Shown: in pieces, positions 1 to 8,462 of the stretch
Layout: each line of letters opens with the position of its first letter
Position numbering within the stretch: position 1 is the first letter of the stretch
Assembly: GCA_934394615.1 (NCBI GenBank)
Contig: CAKRRJ010000089.1
Location: forward strand, 1 to 8,462
Length of the DNA stretch: 8,462 nucleotides
DNA from: an uncultured Lachnospiraceae bacterium
GTDB taxonomy: Bacteria > Bacillota > Clostridia > Lachnospirales > Lachnospiraceae
Direction of reading: 5' to 3'
Notes under the pieces: model-generated
Seen by the model: the letters and a program-made list of their open reading frames with translations, nothing else
What the model was told of the DNA's origin: nothing
The model's database searches: none
Translations under genes and position numbers: made by a program

Positions 1-494
1 TAATTGTATTTGGCAAGGATGCCAGGAATATCGTCCGGGGTGAGCCGTCCGTAAACTTCGTCGTTGATCATCATGACAGGAGCCAGTCCGCAGGCGCCGA
101 CACAGCGGCAGGAATCCAGCGAGAAACGTCCGTCCGGGGTGCATTCTCCGTTGGTGATGCCAAGAAGTTCTTCCAGTTTGGAAAAGATTGCGCCGGAGCC
201 CTTTACGTAGCAGGCAGTGCCCAGGCATACAGAAATCTGATACTTGCCCTTTGGCTGCAGCGCGAACTGGGAATAGAATGTGGAAACGCCGTAAATCTTC
301 TCTAACGGGATCCCGGTTTCATCGGAAATCATAGTCTGGACTTCAATTGGCAGGTAGCCGTAAATGTCCTGCGCCTGCTGCATGATCGGCATGAGCGCGC
401 CTTTGGTGTCCTTCAGTTCCGCAATCACCTTTTTTAAAGCAGCCTCCTGCTCTGGTGTTCCGCTGAAAGGAACCGTCTCTTTTTTACAAGCCAT
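1..494 (-). CDS. hydC: NADH-dependent hydrogenase/oxidoreductase [2Fe-2S] subunit, HydC/NuoE family (3' end cut by window)
   Basis: This is the 24-kDa thioredoxin-like [2Fe-2S] subunit found in complex I (NuoE) and in electron-bifurcating hydrogenases (HydC). It passes electrons between the NADH/flavin subunit (HydB/NuoF) and the rest of the complex in the cytoplasm. The reading frame gives 164 residues to the window edge, and the next codon begins TA, so it may be the stop; the family is about 160 residues long. An N-terminal helical region is followed by the thioredoxin fold with four cluster ligands: C90 and C95 (CLGTAC), then C131 and C135 (CVGAC). The ATG at 494-492 has a strong GAGGAGGAGG ribosome site 6 nt upstream. 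The gene is divergent from the DRTGG/HATPase/hydrogenase-like operon, a context that favours HydC of a HydABC hydrogenase over respiratory NuoE. hydB and hydA would be expected to the left, outside the window, so the symbol is a contextual call. Confidence 0.9.
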   Translation of the reverse strand, partial: MACKKETVPFSGTPEQEAALKKVIAELKDTKGALMPIMQQAQDIYGYLPIEVQTMISDETGIPLEKIYGVSTFYSQFALQPKGKYQISVCLGTACYVKGSGAIFSKLEELLGITNGECTPDGRFSLDSCRCVGACGLAPVMMINDEVYGRLTPDDIPGILAKYN

Positions 495-750: not shown

Positions 751-1098
751 ATGACAGCAAGAGATGTTCAGAAAATCCTTGGTGCCAGGGTGCTTACGGG
801 AGAAGAATTTCTGGACCGCGAGATCGCAAGTGCCTGCGCATCGGACATGATGAGCGATGTGCTGGCTTTTTCGAAAGACCATTCCGTTCTCATCACAGGG
901 CTTTGCAATCCGCAGGTCATCCGTACCGCAGAGATGCTGGATATTGTCTGCGTGATCTTTGTACGGAGAAAACATCCGGATGAAACCATTCTTGCCATGG
1001 CAAAAGAACGTGAATTGATTGTCATGGAAACAGGGCACCGTATGTTTTCTACCTGCGGCATGCTTTATAAAGCCGGGCTTGGCGGAGGTGCAGTCTGA
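751..1098 (+). CDS. DRTGG-domain-like protein of the hydrogenase locus (first copy)
   Basis: This small cytoplasmic protein of 115 residues resembles the single DRTGG-type domain proteins encoded beside HydABC hydrogenases in Clostridia and Thermotogales. Its biochemical role is unknown; DRTGG-type domains in larger proteins are thought to be regulatory or ligand-binding. The start at 751 is chosen because AGGGGGA (736-742) lies 8 nt upstream. In-frame starts at 652 (TTG) and 715 (ATG) lack a well-placed ribosome site. There is no signal peptide or membrane segment. Residues R23-E24-I25-A26, D32 and S35 fall at the same positions in the second DRTGG-like protein of this operon, which points to paralogy. 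The stop codon overlaps the next start by one base (TGATG at 1096-1100), so translation is probably coupled to that of the HATPase. The assignment rests on overall pattern and gene neighbourhood, since the literal DRTGG motif is not present. Confidence 0.75.
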   Translation: MTARDVQKILGARVLTGEEFLDREIASACASDMMSDVLAFSKDHSVLITGLCNPQVIRTAEMLDIVCVIFVRRKHPDETILAMAKERELIVMETGHRMFSTCGMLYKAGLGGGAV

Positions 1099-1523
1099 TG
1101 GAAAACGCAATCGTATTACAATATCATGTTTCTGCGGACGATTTTACCCGGGCAGGGGAAGCCAGCAGTGATGTGAAGGGCAAGTTAAAGCAGCTCGGCA
1201 TCAGCCCGGAGGCCGTGCGCAAAGTAGCCATCGCCATGTATGAGGGTGAAATCAATATGGTGATTCACGCAAACGGCGGCGAGATCACGGTGGAAATCTC
1301 GCCAGAAAAGGTGCGGATGATCCTGGACGATGTGGGGCCGGGCATTCCGGACATTGAACTGGCCATGCAGGCCGGTTATTCCACGGCGCCGGACGAGGTG
1401 CGCAATCTTGGCTTCGGAGCAGGCATGGGCCTTCCGAATATGAAGAAATATACCGATGACATGAAGATAGAGACAGAGCTTGGTGTGGGGACGAAGATCA
1501 CAATGGAAGTAAATCTGATGTGA
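1098..1523 (+). CDS. Stand-alone HATPase, RsbW/SpoIIAB-like ATP-binding protein
   Basis: A 141-residue cytoplasmic protein consisting of a single GHKL ATP-binding domain, like the anti-sigma-factor serine kinases RsbW and SpoIIAB. The N box is visible as E49/E51-x-N53 with H57. The G1 box is D78-x-G80-P-G82-I, and the G2 lid is the glycine-rich stretch G105-F-G-A-G-M-G-L-P-N114. A further threonine-containing motif near the end (GVGTKI) fits the last ATP-contacting segment. No histidine phosphoacceptor domain is present, so it is not a full two-component kinase. The start overlaps the preceding stop by one base, and the hydrogenase-like gene follows after 75 nt. No anti-sigma antagonist or sigma factor is encoded nearby, so the partner protein is unknown. 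A plausible role is phosphorylating or binding one of the DRTGG-like neighbours in a redox-dependent switch, which is inference. Confidence 0.88.
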   Translation: MENAIVLQYHVSADDFTRAGEASSDVKGKLKQLGISPEAVRKVAIAMYEGEINMVIHANGGEITVEISPEKVRMILDDVGPGIPDIELAMQAGYSTAPDEVRNLGFGAGMGLPNMKKYTDDMKIETELGVGTKITMEVNLM

Positions 1524-1598
1524 GAATGGATGGGGCTGGACTGGCGAAAGCCGGAATCCCCAGGCACCAGGAAATGACATTTGGAGGTGAAAGGCGGT

Positions 1599-2888
1599 AT
1601 GGACAAGTTTTACCATTCCGTGCGCCTGGACGAGGAATTATGCAAAGGCTGCATCAACTGCCTGAAACGCTGTCCTACCCAGGCAATCCGCGTGCAGGAT
1701 GGCAAGGCCCGGATCAACAAAAAATTCTGCATTGACTGCGGGGAATGCATCCGGGTATGTCCCCATCACGCGAAGCATGCGGTCTATGACCAGCTTGAGG
1801 AGATGGAACGCTTCCGCTATAAGGTGGCGCTTCCGGCTCCTTCTTTATACAGCCAGTTCAACAACCTGGACGATATCAACATCGTGCTTCATGCGCTTTT
1901 GCTCATGGGATTTGACGATGTGTTTGAGGTGAGCGCGGCGGCGGAACTGGTCAGTGAGGCAACCAGGTCTTATCTGACGGAGCATGAGAATCAGCTGCCC
2001 CTCATCAGCACGGCATGTCCCAGCGTGGTACGGCTGATCCGTGTGCGGTTTCCGAATTTGATTCCGCATCTTCTGCCCTTAAATCCTCCGGTGGAGGTAG
2101 CGGCCGGACTGGCGGTAAAGCGGGCCATGGAAAAGACAGGGTTTCCCAGAGAAGACATCGGCATCTGCTTCATCTCCCCGTGTCCGTCCAAGGTCACTTA
2201 CGCGAGGGCGCCGATTGGAACGGAAAAGAGTGAGATCGACTGTGTGCTTGCCATCAAGGATGTGTACCCGCAGCTCTTAAAATATATGAAGCAGGTGGAT
2301 GAAGACCCCGAGAACATCAGCATTTCCGGCAAGATCGGAATCAGCTGGGGCCACAGCGGCGGCGAGGCAGGCGGACTTTTTACGGAGAGTTATCTGGCGG
2401 CCGACGGCATCGAGAATGTGATCCGGGTCCTGGAAGATATGGAAGACCAGAAGTTTACGAATCTGAAATTTGTGGAGCTGGATGCCTGCAGCGGCGGCTG
2501 CGTGGGCGGTGTGCTGACAGTGGAAAATCCGTATGTGGCAGAAGTAAAATTAAAACACCTGCGCAAATATATGCCGGTGGCAAGAAGCCATATGGATGCG
2601 GAAACAGAAGAAAAAGCGGAAAAACTGATGGCATGGACGCAGGGTGTAGAGTACGAACCAGTCTACAATCTGGGCGAGACCATGATGGAGAGTTTCGCAA
2701 GGTTAAGCCGCATTGAAGCCTTAAGCAAGCAGCTTCCGGGCCTGGACTGCGGAGCCTGCGGGGCACCATCCTGCAAGGCATTGGCGGAGGATATTGCCAA
2801 AGGCGGGGCGAAGGAAGAGGACTGCGTTTATATTATGAAAGAGCGGATCCGGCGGCTGCTGGAACAGAGTGGGAAACAGACGGATTGA
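1599..2888 (+). CDS. [FeFe]-hydrogenase-like iron-sulfur protein, putative sensory type
   Basis: A 429-residue cytoplasmic iron-sulfur protein. Two [4Fe-4S] ferredoxin motifs come first (C15-x2-C18-x2-C21-x3-C25-P and C44-x2-C47-x2-C50-x3-C54-P). The H-cluster domain of [FeFe] hydrogenases follows. At the C-terminus is a four-cysteine Fe-S motif of the RnfB-like type (C384, C387, C392, C409). The four expected H-cluster ligands are present: C140 in STACP, C195 in SPCPSK, and C297 and C301 in ACSGGC. Compared with catalytic hydrogenases (TSCCP, MPCxxKxxE), the proton-relay cysteine before C140 is alanine and the L2 glutamate is missing, while K198 is kept. It is also shorter than catalytic HydA (about 580 residues). 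These traits fit the low-activity or sensory groups, although here no PAS domain is attached. The ATG at 1599 has GGAGGTG at 1583-1589 about 9 nt upstream; an in-frame TTG at 1581 lies on that site and is rejected. Confidence 0.88.
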   Translation: MDKFYHSVRLDEELCKGCINCLKRCPTQAIRVQDGKARINKKFCIDCGECIRVCPHHAKHAVYDQLEEMERFRYKVALPAPSLYSQFNNLDDINIVLHALLLMGFDDVFEVSAAAELVSEATRSYLTEHENQLPLISTACPSVVRLIRVRFPNLIPHLLPLNPPVEVAAGLAVKRAMEKTGFPREDIGICFISPCPSKVTYARAPIGTEKSEIDCVLAIKDVYPQLLKYMKQVDEDPENISISGKIGISWGHSGGEAGGLFTESYLAADGIENVIRVLEDMEDQKFTNLKFVELDACSGGCVGGVLTVENPYVAEVKLKHLRKYMPVARSHMDAETEEKAEKLMAWTQGVEYEPVYNLGETMMESFARLSRIEALSKQLPGLDCGACGAPSCKALAEDIAKGGAKEEDCVYIMKERIRRLLEQSGKQTD

Positions 2889-2984
2889 TGCAGGAACAGA
2901 CTTGCGGATCCGAACAGACGCCTGGCTGACAACAGCAGTGGAACCTGTGTGATGCAGTCATATGGTGGGGAAAGGAGGATAAAC
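2889..2984 (+). other. Intercistronic gap with ribosome site for a GTG start
   Basis: A 96-nt gap inside the operon. No gene, strong hairpin or terminator was seen. Its only clear element is AAAGGAGG at 2971-2978, 6 nt before a GTG at 2985. This fixes the start of the second DRTGG-like gene at 2985 rather than at the earlier in-frame GTG (2949) or ATG (2952). Confidence 0.6.
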
Positions 2985-3335
2985 GTGAAAGTAAAAGAAC
3001 TTCTTGACAGTGGAAAATTTCAGGTGATCCACGCGGGGGATGACCCGGAGCGGGAAATCGCAACCCCGTTCTGCTGTGATCTCTTAAGCGTAGCTATGGG
3101 AAAAGCCCCGGCGGGCTGTGCCTGGGTCACGGTGATGGGAAATATGAATACGCTGGCAGTGGCAACCCTGGCCGATGCTGCCTGCATCATCCTGGCAGAA
3201 GGCGCTGTGCTGGATGAGACCGCAAGAAAAAAGGCAGAGCAGCAGGATATCATGGTGCTGGCCACGGAAGAGCCGGTGTTTGAGGCAGCGCTGTGGGTGT
3301 GGCAGCAGATGCAGGGAGAAACCCATGGAGTGTAA
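2985..3335 (+). CDS. DRTGG-domain-like protein of the hydrogenase locus (second copy)
   Basis: A 116-residue cytoplasmic protein starting at GTG with a near-ideal AAAGGAGG ribosome site. It looks like a diverged paralogue of the first gene of this operon. R23-E24-I25-A26, D32 and S35 occupy the same positions in both. Both then show a hydrophobic strand, an Asn-x-x (N-P-Q versus N-M-N) turn, an alternating Ala/Leu helix ahead of a valine/isoleucine strand, and a D-E-T helix (in DETI versus DETA) before an I-x-V strand. It carries a Cys-Cys pair at 30-31, where the first copy has a single nearby cysteine at 29. The function is unknown. Having two small relatives flank an iron-sulfur sensor-like protein suggests a heterodimer or two separate partners. 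The end overlaps the next coding region by 11 nt, consistent with coupled translation. Confidence 0.75.
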   Translation: MKVKELLDSGKFQVIHAGDDPEREIATPFCCDLLSVAMGKAPAGCAWVTVMGNMNTLAVATLADAACIILAEGAVLDETARKKAEQQDIMVLATEEPVFEAALWVWQQMQGETHGV

Positions 3336-4122
3336 ACGAAAGGCTGCAATGCCGCAGGATGGGGAACAGGCGCGAGACAGCCTGCAGCCGGACCGCCCGG
3401 AATTTGTGGAGTTAAGTTATGACCTGCATATTCACTCCTGCCTTTCCCCTTGCGGGGATGACGACATGACACCTGGCAATATTGTGGGGATGGCAGCCAT
3501 CAAAGGCCTGGACGTGATCGCGGTGACGGACCACAACTCCTGCCGCAACTGTCCGGCGGTGATGAAGCTGGCAGAGCAGTACGGTGTGCTTGCCATACCG
3601 GGCATGGAGCTGACGACCGCGGAGGAAGTGCACGCGGTCTGCCTGTTTCCGGAACTTTCCGCGGCGCTGGAGTTTGACCGGTTTGTTTATGGAAAACTCA
3701 TGAAATTTCCGAACCGGGAAGAAATCTTCGGAAAGCAGCAGATCATGAATGAAGAAGATATCTGTATCGGCTCCGAGCCCAATCTGCTCATCAACAGCAC
3801 GGAGCTTTCCTTTGATGAACTGTGGGATATGGTAGCCGGGCAGTATGGCGGCGTCATGGTTCCCGCCCACATCGACAAAAACGCCAACAGCCTCATCTCG
3901 AACCTGGGTTTTGTGCCGCCGGAGAGCCAGTTCCGGACGGCAGAACTGCACGATATGGCGAAATTGTCAGAATTAAAAAAGAGCAATCCCTATCTGGAAC
4001 AGTGCCGCATCATCTGCGATTCGGACGCCCATTATCTGGAGCATATTCATGAGCCGGAGTGGAAGATGAAGGTGCGGGAGAAAAGCGCGGCGGCGGTGAT
4101 TGCGTATCTGAGGGGAGAATAA
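3325..4122 (+). CDS. PHP-domain metal-dependent phosphoesterase
   Basis: A 265-residue cytoplasmic protein of the PHP (polymerase and histidinol phosphatase) superfamily, whose members hydrolyse phosphate esters with a tri-metal centre. Visible metal-site motifs are H35-x-H37 (DLHIHSCLSPC), D69-H70-N71, E95 (PGMEL), H103, H182 (PAHID) and D234-x-H236 (CDSDAH), so the catalytic set looks intact. Small relatives hydrolyse substrates such as nucleoside 3',5'-bisphosphates or short RNA, but the true substrate of the hydrogenase-linked branch is unknown. The start at 3325 has GGGAGA at 3313-3318 and overlaps the preceding gene by 11 nt. A second ATG at 3349 would remove eight residues of a poorly conserved leader and cannot be excluded. 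The domain has many cysteines (C39, C43, C73, C76 near the active site). It is the last gene before the terminator; a substrate linked to hydrogenase regulation is inference. Confidence 0.88.
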   Translation: MECKRKAAMPQDGEQARDSLQPDRPEFVELSYDLHIHSCLSPCGDDDMTPGNIVGMAAIKGLDVIAVTDHNSCRNCPAVMKLAEQYGVLAIPGMELTTAEEVHAVCLFPELSAALEFDRFVYGKLMKFPNREEIFGKQQIMNEEDICIGSEPNLLINSTELSFDELWDMVAGQYGGVMVPAHIDKNANSLISNLGFVPPESQFRTAELHDMAKLSELKKSNPYLEQCRIICDSDAHYLEHIHEPEWKMKVREKSAAAVIAYLRGE

Positions 4123-4174
4123 AAAATACTGGATATTTCCGGGAAAGTTTACTCGGAAATATCCAGTATTTTTT
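4121..4174. terminator. Bidirectional rho-independent terminator
   Basis: A perfect 21-bp inverted repeat: left arm 4121-4141, loop 4142-4153 (12 nt), right arm 4154-4174. The outer six base pairs are A:T, so each strand ends in a run of six T residues after a GC-containing stem. It lies between two converging genes and so should stop transcription of the PHP gene (rightward) and of the regulator (leftward). The left arm starts inside the TAA stop codon of the PHP gene. Confidence 0.9.
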
Positions 4175-4210: not shown

Positions 4211-6007
4211 TTAATGCAGATCAGGTTCCGCATGCGATTTTAAAATCCGCCATAATGTGCTGCGCCCAATCCCAAGACGCTGCGCAGTCCGGCTCTGGTT
4301 GTTATTTTCTTCTTTCAGGACCATGCGTACGACATCATAGGTGATGTCGGCCAGAGTCTGATTTAAGTCAAACTGATACCCGGATTGTTCGGGAGCTACC
4401 CAGAGTGCTGTTTCCTGATGCAGGAGCCGCATCGTATTTTCATAAGAAATATACGGAGTTGAGGTAATCAGCATCAGCTCATAGATAATGCGCTGCAGCT
4501 GGTGCAGATTGCCTTCCCACGGAAACTGTTTTAGCGCGAGGCTGGCTTTCGTGTCAAATCCGATGATCTGTTTTCCAAGATCTGCGTTCAGCTGGTTGAG
4601 ATAGAGCGTAGTCAGGTAGGGAATATCATCCGGCCGTTCTCTCAAAGGAGGAAGATGCAGGGACAGACAGGAAAAAAGTTTGGTGATTCCGGTGATAATG
4701 GGTTTGGAATCATGTTCTTCATTGTTTGTGGAAAAGGAAAAATACAGCCGGTTCCGGACGGCTAGCCTGGTATCCGCAATGTAGGAAAGGAGCTGGCTGA
4801 AAATCTGGGGCGGGATCGTTTCCATCTGCTTAAAGTAAATGCTGTGCCCGTTATGTGCCAGCGGGGAGTCATGATGGGAAAGCAGATAGGTCCAGTTCCG
4901 CTCTGTGGCGTAAGCGCAGTCGATCTGATAAAAAATGGTGTTCCGGTAACTGCTCTTACAGTAAATATTGTAGGCAGCCAGGTCTTTTCCGGTTCCTTTT
5001 TCGCCGGAAATCAGCACAGGGGTGGAAACGTGGCTGTATTTTTCAATCAGATCCCGTGTGCTTGACAGGCTGTGTGTGCTGTTGAAATAAGAAAAATCAG
5101 GCATGGCATTGCTGTCGGCCATTTTTTCTGTGACCGCGTCAATCTTCCGGATTTCCTGTTTTTCTTTTAACAGGGAATACACATAAAGGCAGGTGCTGTT
5201 CCGCATGGTGGATTTTTTCATAGTAAGGCGCAGTGTATGTCCCTTGATGGTACGTTCTAAAGAAGTATCCCCTTCTTTCCACAATTCTTCAAAATGTTCC
5301 TGCAAAAATGGAAAAATCAGTTTTTTTTCATATTCTGAGAGGCTTGACAGGATGCTTTTTCCATACTGGTCAAAAATGGTGCATGCGACAGGGCTGTTTT
5401 GAAATGCCATGGTCAGCTGAGTCAGTTCCCTGCGGCTTTGCAGGGAAGAACGGGTCAGAGAGATAGCCTGCCGGAATGTGTTCTGGACGGATTCGTAACC
5501 ACTGGTGACAAGGACCGGTGTAATTCCCATGGAAAGAGCCAGATTATGCGCGATCACATCACAGACAACCACCGAAATTCCCATTTCTTTGAGCAGTTTC
5601 ATATTAGATGTGGCATCTTCCTCACTCCAGATTGTGTAGATCGGGATATCGTAATCGAGCAGTTCGCATAAAATCCGGGCATGGCTGGTGATATTTTCGT
5701 AGCCAATGATCGCCATGGGCTGTTGGAAGTTCTGGGCAAGCCGTATGGCGCGCAAGGCATCGAGTGACCAGAGCCCGATGTCGTAGACCGGCAGCGCAAT
5801 GCGCTCTTTTAAGTAGCTGGCGGTACCGCCGCGGGATATAACTGCGTCGTAATTCAGCAGATTCAGTTTATCCAGAATAGAATCCACTTCACTTAAGTTT
5901 GCCACATAACAGTCAGCCTGTACCTTTGTTTCAGAAAGAAGAACTTCATGAACCAGTTCATTCATGCCGCGGTAGGGAGAAATGACGAGAAAATGGATAT
6001 TTTCCAT
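4211..6007 (-). CDS. PrpR_N-type Fis-family transcriptional regulator with degenerate AAA+ domain
   Basis: A 598-residue cytoplasmic regulator with the layout of sigma-54 enhancer-binding proteins. Residues about 1-185 form a PrpR_N sensor (SRGGTA motif near 58-63). About 195-290 is a PAS-like segment, 305-530 an AAA+ domain, and 566-590 a Fis-type helix-turn-helix (QSRTAQRLGIGRSTLWRILK). Walker A is intact (GEKGTGK, 335-341), and the LPPLRERPDDI arginine-finger region is kept at 452-462. However, the Walker B position reads GHSIYFKQ where active members have GGTLFLDE, and no GAFTGA sigma-54 contact loop is seen in the shortened stretch before it. It may therefore act through sigma-A promoters. 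The start at 6007 has AGGAGG about 6 nt upstream; an open extension to 6193 is rejected. It is divergent from the alcohol dehydrogenase/PdxA2 operon and probably controls it, with a C4 sugar acid or related metabolite as likely effector (inference). Confidence 0.88.
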   Translation of the reverse strand: MENIHFLVISPYRGMNELVHEVLLSETKVQADCYVANLSEVDSILDKLNLLNYDAVISRGGTASYLKERIALPVYDIGLWSLDALRAIRLAQNFQQPMAIIGYENITSHARILCELLDYDIPIYTIWSEEDATSNMKLLKEMGISVVVCDVIAHNLALSMGITPVLVTSGYESVQNTFRQAISLTRSSLQSRRELTQLTMAFQNSPVACTIFDQYGKSILSSLSEYEKKLIFPFLQEHFEELWKEGDTSLERTIKGHTLRLTMKKSTMRNSTCLYVYSLLKEKQEIRKIDAVTEKMADSNAMPDFSYFNSTHSLSSTRDLIEKYSHVSTPVLISGEKGTGKDLAAYNIYCKSSYRNTIFYQIDCAYATERNWTYLLSHHDSPLAHNGHSIYFKQMETIPPQIFSQLLSYIADTRLAVRNRLYFSFSTNNEEHDSKPIITGITKLFSCLSLHLPPLRERPDDIPYLTTLYLNQLNADLGKQIIGFDTKASLALKQFPWEGNLHQLQRIIYELMLITSTPYISYENTMRLLHQETALWVAPEQSGYQFDLNQTLADITYDVVRMVLKEENNNQSRTAQRLGIGRSTLWRILKSHAEPDLH

Positions 6008-6033
6008 GAATGACCTCCTGTACTTTACTTGAT

Positions 6034-6053
6034 ATGTCTCATAATAAAACAAA
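6034..6053. promoter_or_regulatory. Operator-like repeat, copy 1
   Basis: ATGTCTCATAATAAAACAAA matches the second copy at 6083 in 18 of 20 positions. Its core, 6035-6051, is an imperfect dyad of the form TGTYTCA-N3-TAAAACA. It lies next to the regulator's own start (AGGAGG at 6014-6019), so binding here could also autoregulate that gene. Assignment to the PrpR-like protein is inferred from position. Confidence 0.5.
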
Positions 6054-6082
6054 AATGATAGAAAAACAACAAAAAAACAAGC

Positions 6083-6102
6083 ATGTTTCAAAATAAAACA
6101 AA
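6083..6102. promoter_or_regulatory. Operator-like repeat, copy 2
   Basis: ATGTTTCAAAATAAAACAAA has the better dyad of the two copies: TGTTTCA at 6084-6090 against TAAAACA at 6094-6100, with one mismatch in the arms. It is offset 49 bp from copy 1. If the extended -10 at 6140-6148 is real, its centre lies about 60 nt upstream of the transcription start, a usual place for an activator of sigma-A promoters. Confidence 0.5.
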
Positions 6103-6139
6103 TAAGCAATTTCAAATTCTGGAGCCTGTCAGGATTTTC

Positions 6140-6148
6140 TGTTAGGAT
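6140..6148 (+). promoter_or_regulatory. Possible extended -10 promoter of the dehydrogenase operon
   Basis: TGTTAGGAT reads as TGn followed by a -10 hexamer with four of six consensus bases. The predicted start near 6155 would leave a leader of about 30 nt containing the AAAGGAG ribosome site. The -35 region is weak, so this is a tentative call. Confidence 0.3.
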
Positions 6149-6184
6149 AGCATCATCAAGAGAGAACGAAAGGAGCAACAAATC

Positions 6185-7339
6185 ATGAAACATCAGTTGA
6201 TTATCCCGTCTGTACTTTATACAGGAGAGGGAAGCATTGCAGAGAGCATCAAAGAAGTGATCGCAAAAGAGCAGGCAAAGAAAGTGCTTGTTTTTACAGA
6301 TAAAGGAATTATCGGAGCTGGTTTACTGGATCTTTTATTAGACGCGTTAAAAGAGCAGGAAACCGCGTATGAGATTTTCAGTGATTTAAGACCAGAGCCA
6401 TCTTATGAAGATGTGGAAAAAATCCGCAGACAGGCAGAAAACAGCGAGGGAGACCTGATCGTGGCATTTGGCGGCGGAAGTGTTATGGATGCCGCGAAAC
6501 TGGTTTCCATTTTAAAAGGTTCCGATTATTCGGTGAAAGATCTTCTGGCAGACCCGTCTCTTGGAAGAAAGCAGATGAAGAGCGTGGCAATCCCGACCAC
6601 CTGCGGAACCGGATCTGAGGCAACCTGCAACGCCATCGTGGCAGTTCCGGAAGAGGAAGTAAAGAAAGGCATTGTCAACACCGCCATGATCCCGGATTAT
6701 GTAATTCTGGATGCGCAGGTGATCAAAAAACTTCCGAAGTCCATTGTGGCAGCAACCGGAGTTGACGCGCTGGCTCATGTGGTAGAGTGCTATACTTCCA
6801 AAAAGGCTACCCCATTGAGCAATACTTACGCGCTTGCAGGAGCAAAACTGATCTTTGAAAATATCAGAGAGGCTTACTGCAACCCGGACAATATGGAAGC
6901 AAAAAGCAATATGATGCTGGGCGCTTTTTACGGCGGCGTGGCAATTACCGGAAGCGGTACTACCGCGGTACACGCTCTGTCTTATCCGTTAGGCGGCAAA
7001 TATCACATCCCGCACGGCGTATCCAACGCGATCTTATTTGCTCATGTTATGAAAATGAACAAAGAGGCCTGTGCAGCACAGCTTGCGGAAATCTGTGACG
7101 CGATCAATCCGTCCCTGTATGCACAAAGCATTGACGCGAAAGCAGACTATGTGATCGGTCAGATCGAGGATATCGTGAAGTTCACGGAGATCCCGACCGA
7201 TTTATACAGCTTTGGTGTGAAGAAAGAAGATCTGGATTTCCTGGTAGATTCCGGAAGCAAGCAGACCAGACTTTTAGTAAATAACCGCAAGGAACTGACA
7301 CTGGACGATATCCGTTCTATCTATCTGAAAGTTTTATAA
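6185..7339 (+). CDS. Iron-containing (group III) alcohol dehydrogenase
   Basis: A 384-residue cytoplasmic NAD(P)-dependent dehydrogenase of the Fe-ADH family, full length. The N-terminal Rossmann-like half carries GGGSVMDAAK (G96-S99, D102), which binds the cofactor phosphates. A TCGTGSEAT segment follows near residue 140. The C-terminal half supplies the metal ligands D194 and H198 (DALAH), H263 (AVHALSYPLGG) and H277 (IPHG), all present, so the enzyme should be active. The family interconverts alcohols and aldehydes or ketones; the exact substrate cannot be read from sequence. As first gene of an operon with PdxA2-like and DUF1537 kinase genes, a C4 polyol, hydroxyaldehyde or hydroxyacid substrate is likely (inference). 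AAAGGAG (6169-6175) lies 9 nt before the ATG. The PdxA2-like gene follows after 20 nt with no terminator. Confidence 0.93.
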   Translation: MKHQLIIPSVLYTGEGSIAESIKEVIAKEQAKKVLVFTDKGIIGAGLLDLLLDALKEQETAYEIFSDLRPEPSYEDVEKIRRQAENSEGDLIVAFGGGSVMDAAKLVSILKGSDYSVKDLLADPSLGRKQMKSVAIPTTCGTGSEATCNAIVAVPEEEVKKGIVNTAMIPDYVILDAQVIKKLPKSIVAATGVDALAHVVECYTSKKATPLSNTYALAGAKLIFENIREAYCNPDNMEAKSNMMLGAFYGGVAITGSGTTAVHALSYPLGGKYHIPHGVSNAILFAHVMKMNKEACAAQLAEICDAINPSLYAQSIDAKADYVIGQIEDIVKFTEIPTDLYSFGVKKEDLDFLVDSGSKQTRLLVNNRKELTLDDIRSIYLKVL

Positions 7340-7359
7340 GAAAAAAGGGGGATTACAAC

Positions 7360-8412
7360 ATGGCACAGTTACCAATCCTGGCAATTACAGCAGGAGATCC
7401 GGCAGGAGCAGGTCCGGAGATCACAGCAAGAGCATTTGCGAATGACAGCGTTTATGAAATGTGCAGACCAGTCGTGATCGGGGATCCATGCATGATGCAG
7501 CAGGCGCTCGTATGTACCGGATTAAACGATCAGATCCGGATCCATGTGATCGAAGATGTAAAGGATGCGGTTTATGAGAAGGGCATCATGAATGTTTATG
7601 ATATGCATCTGATCTCCGACCCGTCCGAAATCGAGCTTGGAAAGATCAGCAAAGAAGCAGGAGAAGCCGCATTCCAGTATGTAGTGAAAGCGATTCAGCT
7701 GGCAATGGCGGATGAAGTGGATGGCACGATCACCAACGCGATCAGCAAGGAAGCAATCAACCTGGCAGGACATCATTATTCCGGCCACACCGAGATCTAT
7801 GCGGACTATACCGGAACGAAGAAGTACTGCATGATGCTGGCGCACAATGATTTCCGTGTGGTACATGTATCCACACATGTTTCCTTACGGGAAGCCTGCG
7901 ACCGCTGCAAGAAGGAGCGGATCCTGGATGTGATCGAGATGGCAGATGAAGTATGCCGTGATCTTGGCATCAAGGAGCCGAAGGTAGCTGTGGCTGGTTT
8001 AAATCCGCACTGTGGAGAGCACGGAATGTTCGGAAGAGAGGAAATTGAGGAGATCGAGCCAGCCATTGCGGAGGCAAAGGAAAAGGGGATTCAGGCAATT
8101 GGACCGTGCCCGCCGGATACAGTATTTTCCCAGGCAATTGGCGGCTGGTATGACATTGTTGTATGCATGTACCACGATCAGGGACACATTCCGACAAAAG
8201 TACAGGGCTTTGTGTATGACCGTGAACGGCAGCAGTGGAATGCGGTTGCGGGAATTAACATTACACTGGGACTTCCGATCATCCGTGTATCCGTAGATCA
8301 TGGAACTGCGTTCGATCATGCCGGAAAAGGAGATGCAAACGAACTGAGCCTGCTCAATTCCATCGAATATGGAGCGAAGATGGCGCTGAGCAGACTTGAG
8401 AAAAGGGGGTAA
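7360..8412 (+). CDS. pdxA2: PdxA2-like 4-phospho-D-threonate/D-erythronate dehydrogenase
   Basis: A 350-residue cytoplasmic enzyme of the PdxA family, which oxidises a phosphorylated C4 hydroxyacid with NAD+ and is followed by decarboxylation. PdxA itself serves vitamin B6 synthesis. The adjacent DUF1537 kinase start indicates the catabolic PdxA2 branch, which acts on 4-phospho-D-threonate or -erythronate and yields dihydroxyacetone phosphate plus CO2. Motifs seen: GDPAGAGPE (residues 12-20, substrate/NAD site), and three metal-ligand histidines by alignment with E. coli PdxA, namely H143 (SGHTE), H173 (STHVSL) and H272 (MYHDQGH). A C-terminal VDHGTAFDHAGKGDANE stretch starts at 312. The start is set by AAGGGGG (7345-7351), 8 nt before the ATG. 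The 3' end carries the ribosome site of the kinase. A role in pyridoxal phosphate synthesis is less likely given the operon, but sequence alone does not exclude it. Confidence 0.88.
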   Translation: MAQLPILAITAGDPAGAGPEITARAFANDSVYEMCRPVVIGDPCMMQQALVCTGLNDQIRIHVIEDVKDAVYEKGIMNVYDMHLISDPSEIELGKISKEAGEAAFQYVVKAIQLAMADEVDGTITNAISKEAINLAGHHYSGHTEIYADYTGTKKYCMMLAHNDFRVVHVSTHVSLREACDRCKKERILDVIEMADEVCRDLGIKEPKVAVAGLNPHCGEHGMFGREEIEEIEPAIAEAKEKGIQAIGPCPPDTVFSQAIGGWYDIVVCMYHDQGHIPTKVQGFVYDRERQQWNAVAGINITLGLPIIRVSVDHGTAFDHAGKGDANELSLLNSIEYGAKMALSRLEKRG

Positions 8413-8417
8413 TCCGT

Positions 8418-8462
8418 ATGGATAAACTCCTGATCATTGCAGATGATTTTACCGGTGCGCTG
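8418..8462 (+). CDS. DUF1537 four-carbon acid sugar kinase, first 15 codons only
   Basis: The visible peptide is MDKLLIIADDFTGAL, ending at the window edge. The ADDFTGA motif is the N-terminal signature of the DUF1537 family, ATP-dependent kinases of four-carbon acid sugars (DtnK/DenK types for D-threonate and D-erythronate, OtnK types for 4-carbon oxo-sugar acids). AAGGGGG at 8403-8409, inside the end of the preceding gene, lies 8 nt before the ATG, and only 5 nt separate the two coding regions. The kinase product would be the substrate of the PdxA2-like enzyme just upstream. The subtype cannot be told from this fragment. Confidence 0.85.
   Translation, partial: MDKLLIIADDFTGAL

Follow-up and report, generated by a model that had tools for sequence, protein, structure and literature searches.

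Group D [FeFe]-hydrogenases are marked by the absence of the proton-transfer cysteine, a serine or threonine at the M353 position, and an extra C-terminal cluster, and are described, in the excerpts available, as "putative sensory" (PMC8163306); the sensory role of such hydrogenases is also called putative in the available part of a second paper (PMC8924675). In Thermoanaerobacter, a histidine kinase and a group D hydrogenase are reported upstream of a bifurcating hydrogenase (PMC3608648, in extract), and the same arrangement with an additional "AraC" gene is given for TamHydS of Thermoanaerobacter mathranii (PMC8163306). As far as the accessible passages go, knowledge of the TamHydS partners in the native host is called limited (PMC13104023), signal transmission from group D hydrogenases is named as an open question (PMC8163306), and HydD of A. 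woodii is presented as a subunit without cofactor (PMC6288185). Here, we report a five-gene module encoding a group D-type [FeFe]-hydrogenase-like protein, a stand-alone GHKL ATPase, two DRTGG proteins, and a PHP-family protein at positions 751 to 4122 of an 8,462-nucleotide stretch of an uncultured Lachnospiraceae genome (contig CAKRRJ010000089.1; the whole stretch is called the window below). With a probability of roughly 40%, we read this operon as a protein switch that responds to H2 or redox state and acts on the complexes passing electrons between NADH and ferredoxin. None of the literature matches listed linked DRTGG to hydrogenase, PHP, or Rnf, and no published description of the five-gene unit or of its hydrogenase-less, Rnf-linked form was found in a search that had subscription literature, including Calusinska 2010, outside its reach.

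All five genes lie on the forward strand: DRTGG1 (751..1098, 115 amino acids [aa]), the SpoIIAB/RsbW-like ATPase (1098..1523, 141 aa), the hydrogenase-like protein (1599..2888, 429 aa), DRTGG2 (2985..3335, 116 aa, GTG start), and the PHP-family protein (3325..4122, 265 aa). DRTGG1 and the ATPase overlap by 1 base and DRTGG2 and the PHP gene by 11, with gaps of 75 bases before and 96 after the hydrogenase gene. A HydC/NuoE-type [2Fe-2S] subunit (3..494, reverse strand; 2Fe-2S_thioredx PF01257, 174.3 bits) starts at 494, diverges from the module, and reaches the window edge, so that the compact, co-directional operon divergent from a HydC-type subunit, as drawn in a first-pass annotation of the bare sequence, is borne out. 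Going by its relatives, HydB and HydA of the source genome would lie beyond the window.

Relatives were compared in two sets. The close-relative set was the best 80 of 422 loci, some of them cut by contig ends; the class sample comprised 236 Clostridia genomes (the class of one Lacrimispora genome; completeness of ≥90 was requested, actual values not being stated), with the seed genomes G002 and G003 outside it. Group D membership was set at >300 bits (next match, 132 bits), HydB calls at E 1e-120 or better, and group A HydA calls at E <1e-90. Neighbour counts extend to the contig end or to about 9.5 kb (11 kb where Rnf was counted) and are lower bounds; short loci (L081-L121) were excluded from these counts, those of the class sample being refetched with longer flanks. 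Fisher values ignore kinship.

The full gene order was found in 77 of the 80 close relatives, and all five genes stood together at 105 of the 121 loci (120 genomes of the class sample) that carried a group D hydrogenase, which places the five-gene set far beyond chance and, within Clostridia, makes it the single conserved unit that had been supposed. At seven of the 16 incomplete loci, the contig continued for <350 bases on the side where genes were missing (G235, G012, G045, G116, G023, G126, and G015). Elsewhere among them PHP was absent (G011, G034, G048, and G096), DRTGG1 was absent (G127), or both DRTGG2 and PHP were absent (G021 and G191), and in G184 and G234 the hydrogenase was alone at its locus. 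The module-type ATPase occurred in 117/120 genomes with a group D hydrogenase versus 2/116 without (Fisher p ~5e-61), the three misses (G023, G045, and G235) being contig ends, and the co-occurrence of ATPase and hydrogenase is almost all-or-none. A divergent HydC was present in 76 of the 80 close relatives, HydB on the HydC strand in 71, and HydA in 67. The nearest hydrogenases at loci of named genomes were 79-80% identical and came mainly from Lachnospiraceae.

The window hydrogenase matched Fe_hyd_lg_C (100.2 bits; Pfam cut-off, 22.1) and the FeS domain PF04060 (47.7 bits; cut-off, 23), plus Fer4 domains, and contains the motifs STACPS, SPCPSK, and DACSGGCVGG. Its two N-terminal 4Fe-4S motifs hold eight cysteines, each kept in 118-120 of 121 relatives, and the H-domain cluster cysteines C140, C195, C297, and C301 were kept in all 121. 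The proton-transfer cysteine was absent in 121/121 (position 139; A139 in the window protein), the M353 position was occupied by S193 (Ser or Thr in 120/121), and the C-terminal Cx2Cx4Cx16C pattern (C384, C387, C392, and C409) was found in 80/80 close relatives. No PAS domain was detected by Pfam scan (E 0.1), and the group A [FeFe]-hydrogenase model TIGR02512 was not reached (93.4 versus a cut-off of 405.95 bits). Searched by profile, solved structures gave no match at E 1e-20; a single-sequence search matched group A enzymes up to E 4.3e-19. On the features described for that group, the window Fe-S protein is classed as group D-type. The same features fit the published "putative sensory" type and agree with its earlier description as a non-canonical [FeFe]-hydrogenase-like protein that might be a sensor component.

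The protein ends 20 residues past the last cluster cysteine, compared with 26-106 (median, 60) in the 80 close relatives, counted on stop-to-stop frames. This short tail (window 2826-2888) is not a sequencing slip, since a 99% identical 429-aa protein represents 560 sequences.

Missing H-cluster maturases were considered as evidence against an H2 sensor and set aside, assembly gaps being at least as likely. HydF was below the cut-off in 27/120 module genomes, and HydF and HydG were both missing in 24/120. Group A HydA was inspected in 17 of those 24 genomes and kept intact L2 and L3 motifs in 17/17 (L1 motif TSCSP in 16 and TSIGP in 1), and the maturase gaps were therefore not counted against the H-cluster; an intact HydA without HydF and HydG reflects either an assembly gap or another maturation route. 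HydA neighbours of the module (L001-L080 and class loci) mostly carry TSCSP for TSCCP in L1, like A. woodii HydA1 (7q4v), with a few TSIGP and one TSCCP.

Retention of all the Fe-S cysteines would also suit a metabolic hydrogenase or electron carrier with the other genes as bystanders, and TamHydS does interconvert H+ and H2 according to the excerpts of its description (PMC8163306). The invariably absent proton-transfer cysteine and the slowness of TamHydS (same source) speak against a metabolic enzyme, and neither the gene order kept at 105/121 loci nor the ATPase in 117/120 genomes is expected of bystanders; we regard this explanation as very improbable.

Genome-wide, HydB was found in 118/120 module genomes versus 74/116 others, group A HydA in 116/120 versus 86/116, and RnfC in 104/120 versus 74/116. 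A genome with the module thus almost always has HydB and HydA; the reverse does not hold. Frequent occurrence in genomes without HydABC, the finding that the first-pass annotation had named as fatal to its proposal, was not seen in the sample. Its proposal that the module controls the bifurcating hydrogenase is right in the hydrogenase link and too narrow: HydA was near at 64/121 loci, HydB at 77/121 (both within 9.5 kb), some sets are linked to Rnf without a hydrogenase, and a presumed H-cluster lysine is replaced at 17/121 loci. Where the module stood apart from hyd genes, its neighbours included PyrK/PyrD-like genes (L158 and L171) and a molybdopterin-type oxidase (L192 and L201), as named by reading the sequences. 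Between HydC and HydB (e.g., in L207 and L193), and also beside Rnf sets, stands a second GHKL ATPase of about 185 aa, which was near 85/121 loci.

The association with HydB across genomes, together with the occurrence on Rnf operons, would also be expected of a biogenesis module: HydB/HydC-type or Rnf complexes would be assembled or supplied with cofactors with the help of the ATPase, DRTGG, and PHP proteins, and the group D protein would act as a carrier or tester of Fe-S clusters. GHKL proteins can act as chaperones, and the hydrogenase H-domain cysteines are kept in 121/121 even where the lysine is replaced. Against biogenesis, HydB and RnfC each occur in 74/116 module-less genomes, so that neither complex needs the module generally, and the group D relative TamHydS is, in the passages available, a working H2 enzyme (PMC8163306). 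We consider biogenesis the strongest rival explanation and still unlikely.

The ATPase (HATPase_c PF02518, 38.8 bits; cut-off, 26.4) retained its N, G1, and G2 boxes, with E49, N53, D78, G80, G82, and the GFGAGMG box at 100% in 119 sequences. Its best solved relatives are SpoIIAB (1til, E 6.9e-07), to whose catalytic base we take the N-box glutamate to correspond. In the PHP-family protein (PF02811, 34.4 bits; cut-off, 26.4), D33, H35, H37, D69, H70, E95, and H103 were conserved at 100% and H182, D234, and H236 at 98% (116 sequences), residues that we presume to be metal ligands. The ATP-binding and phosphoesterase-family assignments made at first pass are upheld by these sites. The PHP model (predicted local distance difference test [pLDDT], 89.4) was nearest among solved structures to EndoQ, BAD_1165, RNase AM, and an AMP-bound enzyme.

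DRTGG1 scored 32.1 bits against the DRTGG profile PF07085, above the cut-off of 25.2, and its diverged paralogue DRTGG2 18.5 bits, below it. Their relatives (118 and 121 rows) split on one branch with 99% support, as expected of a single old duplication, apparently retained at both positions. The two families have D32, S35, T49, and an asparagine in common; S35 was conserved at 99% and 100%, and this near-invariant serine may be a phosphate acceptor or a ligand contact. The DRTGG1 model (pLDDT, 92.2) was nearest to 2ioj (TM score, 0.84) and next closest to regulatory regions of CBS-DRTGG pyrophosphatase (3l2b and 3l31), and also to HPr kinase.

The resemblance to the pyrophosphatase regions, and the likeness of the PHP model to nucleotide and nucleic acid enzymes, would accord with a small-molecule switch in which the DRTGG proteins bind a nucleotide signal, the PHP protein degrades it, and the ATPase reads the pair. 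The module holds no synthase for such a signal, and we rate this version as decidedly improbable. Signalling to a regulator of the hyd genes, with transcription as output, is also quite unlikely, though not to the same degree. It is the published proposal for TamHydS with its "AraC family" neighbour, as far as the excerpts set it out (PMC8163306), and the module ATPase resembles SpoIIAB and RsbW by its best NCBIfam matches. ATPases of the SpoIIAB/RsbW kind control sigma factors. Against a transcriptional circuit, no DNA-binding domain and no sigma or STAS family match was found in the five module proteins (Pfam, E 0.1; a sigma partner elsewhere in the genomes was not searched for), and the immediate neighbours are DRTGG proteins, neither of which has a helix-turn-helix domain as in AraC-family regulators at the same threshold. 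In some sources, relatives of DRTGG1 go by the name "predicted transcriptional regulator", which may account for the "AraC" gene beside TamHydS.

The lysine compared here is the one that we equate with CpI K358, the cyanide-binding residue of the H-cluster. It was replaced at 17/121 loci, by Arg at 16 and by Trp at 1. HydA was near none of the 16 Arg loci and near 1/17 non-Lys versus 63/104 Lys loci; Rnf was near 8/17 non-Lys loci (all 8 of them Arg) versus 6/104 Lys loci. The non-Lys state needs three changes on the tree. In three genomes (G184, G234, and G196; L264-L266), ATPase, DRTGG, and PHP genes adjoin Rnf with no hydrogenase between them. A DRTGG-ATPase-DRTGG-PHP-second ATPase series runs straight into Rnf genes in G184 and G234, and the Arg-type hydrogenase of these two genomes lies at another site, next to other Rnf-like genes. 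In G196, the series comprises the ATPase, one DRTGG, and PHP and continues into HydC, the second ATPase, a small NuoE-like gene, HydB, and Rnf; a search of that genome gave no group D match at E 1e-20. G173, which has the ATPase and no group D protein, held only DRTGG1 and the ATPase at the locus examined. From these four genomes, the core can occur with no hydrogenase at the same locus, and relatives linked to Rnf and devoid of a hydrogenase gene point to a switch broader than a hydrogen sensor. The Arg-type input protein may carry 4Fe-4S clusters only and read redox state rather than H2. It is possible, if doubtful, that HydBC and Rnf are served by an undescribed switch, the DRTGG-GHKL-DRTGG-PHP core, that does not depend on a hydrogenase. 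The group D protein would then be a plug-in input; where Rnf is the target, it would have been lost or, through loss of the lysine, have changed from an H2 sensor to a redox sensor with 4Fe-4S clusters only. At L203 and L208, solitary group D proteins of the Arg type were also seen, lying upstream of a divergent set of Rnf-like genes that includes a 2Fe-2S protein.

In the proposed switch, the group D hydrogenase would be the likely H2 or redox input, and an exchangeable one; the GHKL ATPase would be the likely kinase, the two DRTGG proteins its likely partners or substrates, and the PHP protein the likely phosphate-removing (reset) side. The target would be the NAD-ferredoxin complexes HydABC or Rnf, with their activity rather than transcription as output. 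This reading is supported by the co-conservation of the genes, the co-occurrence with HydB and HydA, the conserved ATP site and presumed metal sites, S35 of the DRTGG proteins, the absence of a DNA-binding domain, the retained DRTGG pair, and the Rnf-linked sets. Several points weigh against it. Within the stretch seen, HydA was not adjacent at 57/121 loci and HydB at 44/121. The ATPase fell below both NCBIfam anti-sigma equivalog cut-offs (spIIAB, its best, 60.3 versus 135 bits; RsbW, 26.2 versus 145 bits), and the PHP model points to nucleotides or nucleic acids no less than to a phosphoprotein as substrate. In TamHydS, the C-terminal cluster is described in the available excerpts as unresponsive to H2 (PMC13104023). 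The Rnf/Arg pattern has thin independent support, Arg having arisen few times (three changes), and a paired test of Arg against HydA neighbourhood had 2 to 3 independent pairs, with which significance is unreachable. The input and target assignments draw on context and literature, and we infer the kinase, substrate, and reset roles.

The operon is followed by a terminator-like hairpin of 20 pairs with a T-rich tail (4124..4171, forward strand; terminator scan). The window contained 12 terminator-like sites versus 8.6 (standard deviation, 3.2) in shuffles, so that this hairpin is distinguished by its stem length. Past the hairpin, window positions 4211-8462 hold an unrelated set, in which a reverse-strand PrpR_N/sigma-54-type activator is transcribed away from the genes for an iron-containing alcohol dehydrogenase and a PdxA-family dehydrogenase, with another gene beginning near 8419. 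Rex control of the divergent promoter was considered; the best window match to the consensus was 11/14 (positions 528-545), and 15/68 intergenic regions scored ≥11/14 versus about 3.9 in mononucleotide shuffles, which is suggestive and too weak to use. No relative was confirmed in viral contigs.

About half of the sampled Clostridia genomes carry this constant group of four partner proteins, which offers concrete candidate partners for group D hydrogenases and argues against the presence of a transcription factor directly beside them. The hydrogenase-less, Rnf-linked forms indicate what may be core and what may be input. If the reading is true, the switch would help set how electrons are divided between NADH, ferredoxin, and H2 in fermenting Clostridia.

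Among known systems, TamHydS (group D/M2e) is the most similar by its published description, as available in part: it has the same cysteine motifs, no proton-transfer cysteine, a serine at M353, the C-terminal Cx2Cx4Cx16C, and no PAS domain (PMC8163306 and PMC13104023), and is encoded with a histidine-kinase-like ATPase near HydABC. Its published neighbour is called AraC, whereas in the window both small neighbours are of the DRTGG type; in addition, the set includes a PHP gene, and Rnf-linked or hydrogenase-less forms exist. The group C sensory hydrogenases (TmHydS, R. albus HydS, and HfsB with HfsC) are likewise slow hydrogenases proposed as regulators, HfsB being encoded beside a serine-phosphatase-like protein in the part of the source available (PMC11837493); the window protein, in contrast, lacks PAS and has DRTGG, a stand-alone GHKL ATPase, and PHP as partners. 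The SpoIIAB/RsbW anti-sigma kinases have in common with the module a stand-alone GHKL ATPase with an E-x-x-x-N box, but the module ATPase lies under both NCBIfam cut-offs and the module has no STAS or sigma gene. CBS-DRTGG pyrophosphatase and HPr kinase N-domains share the DRTGG fold, which in the module stands alone and in two copies. HydABC and Rnf operons are frequent neighbours of the module, which also occurs away from both.

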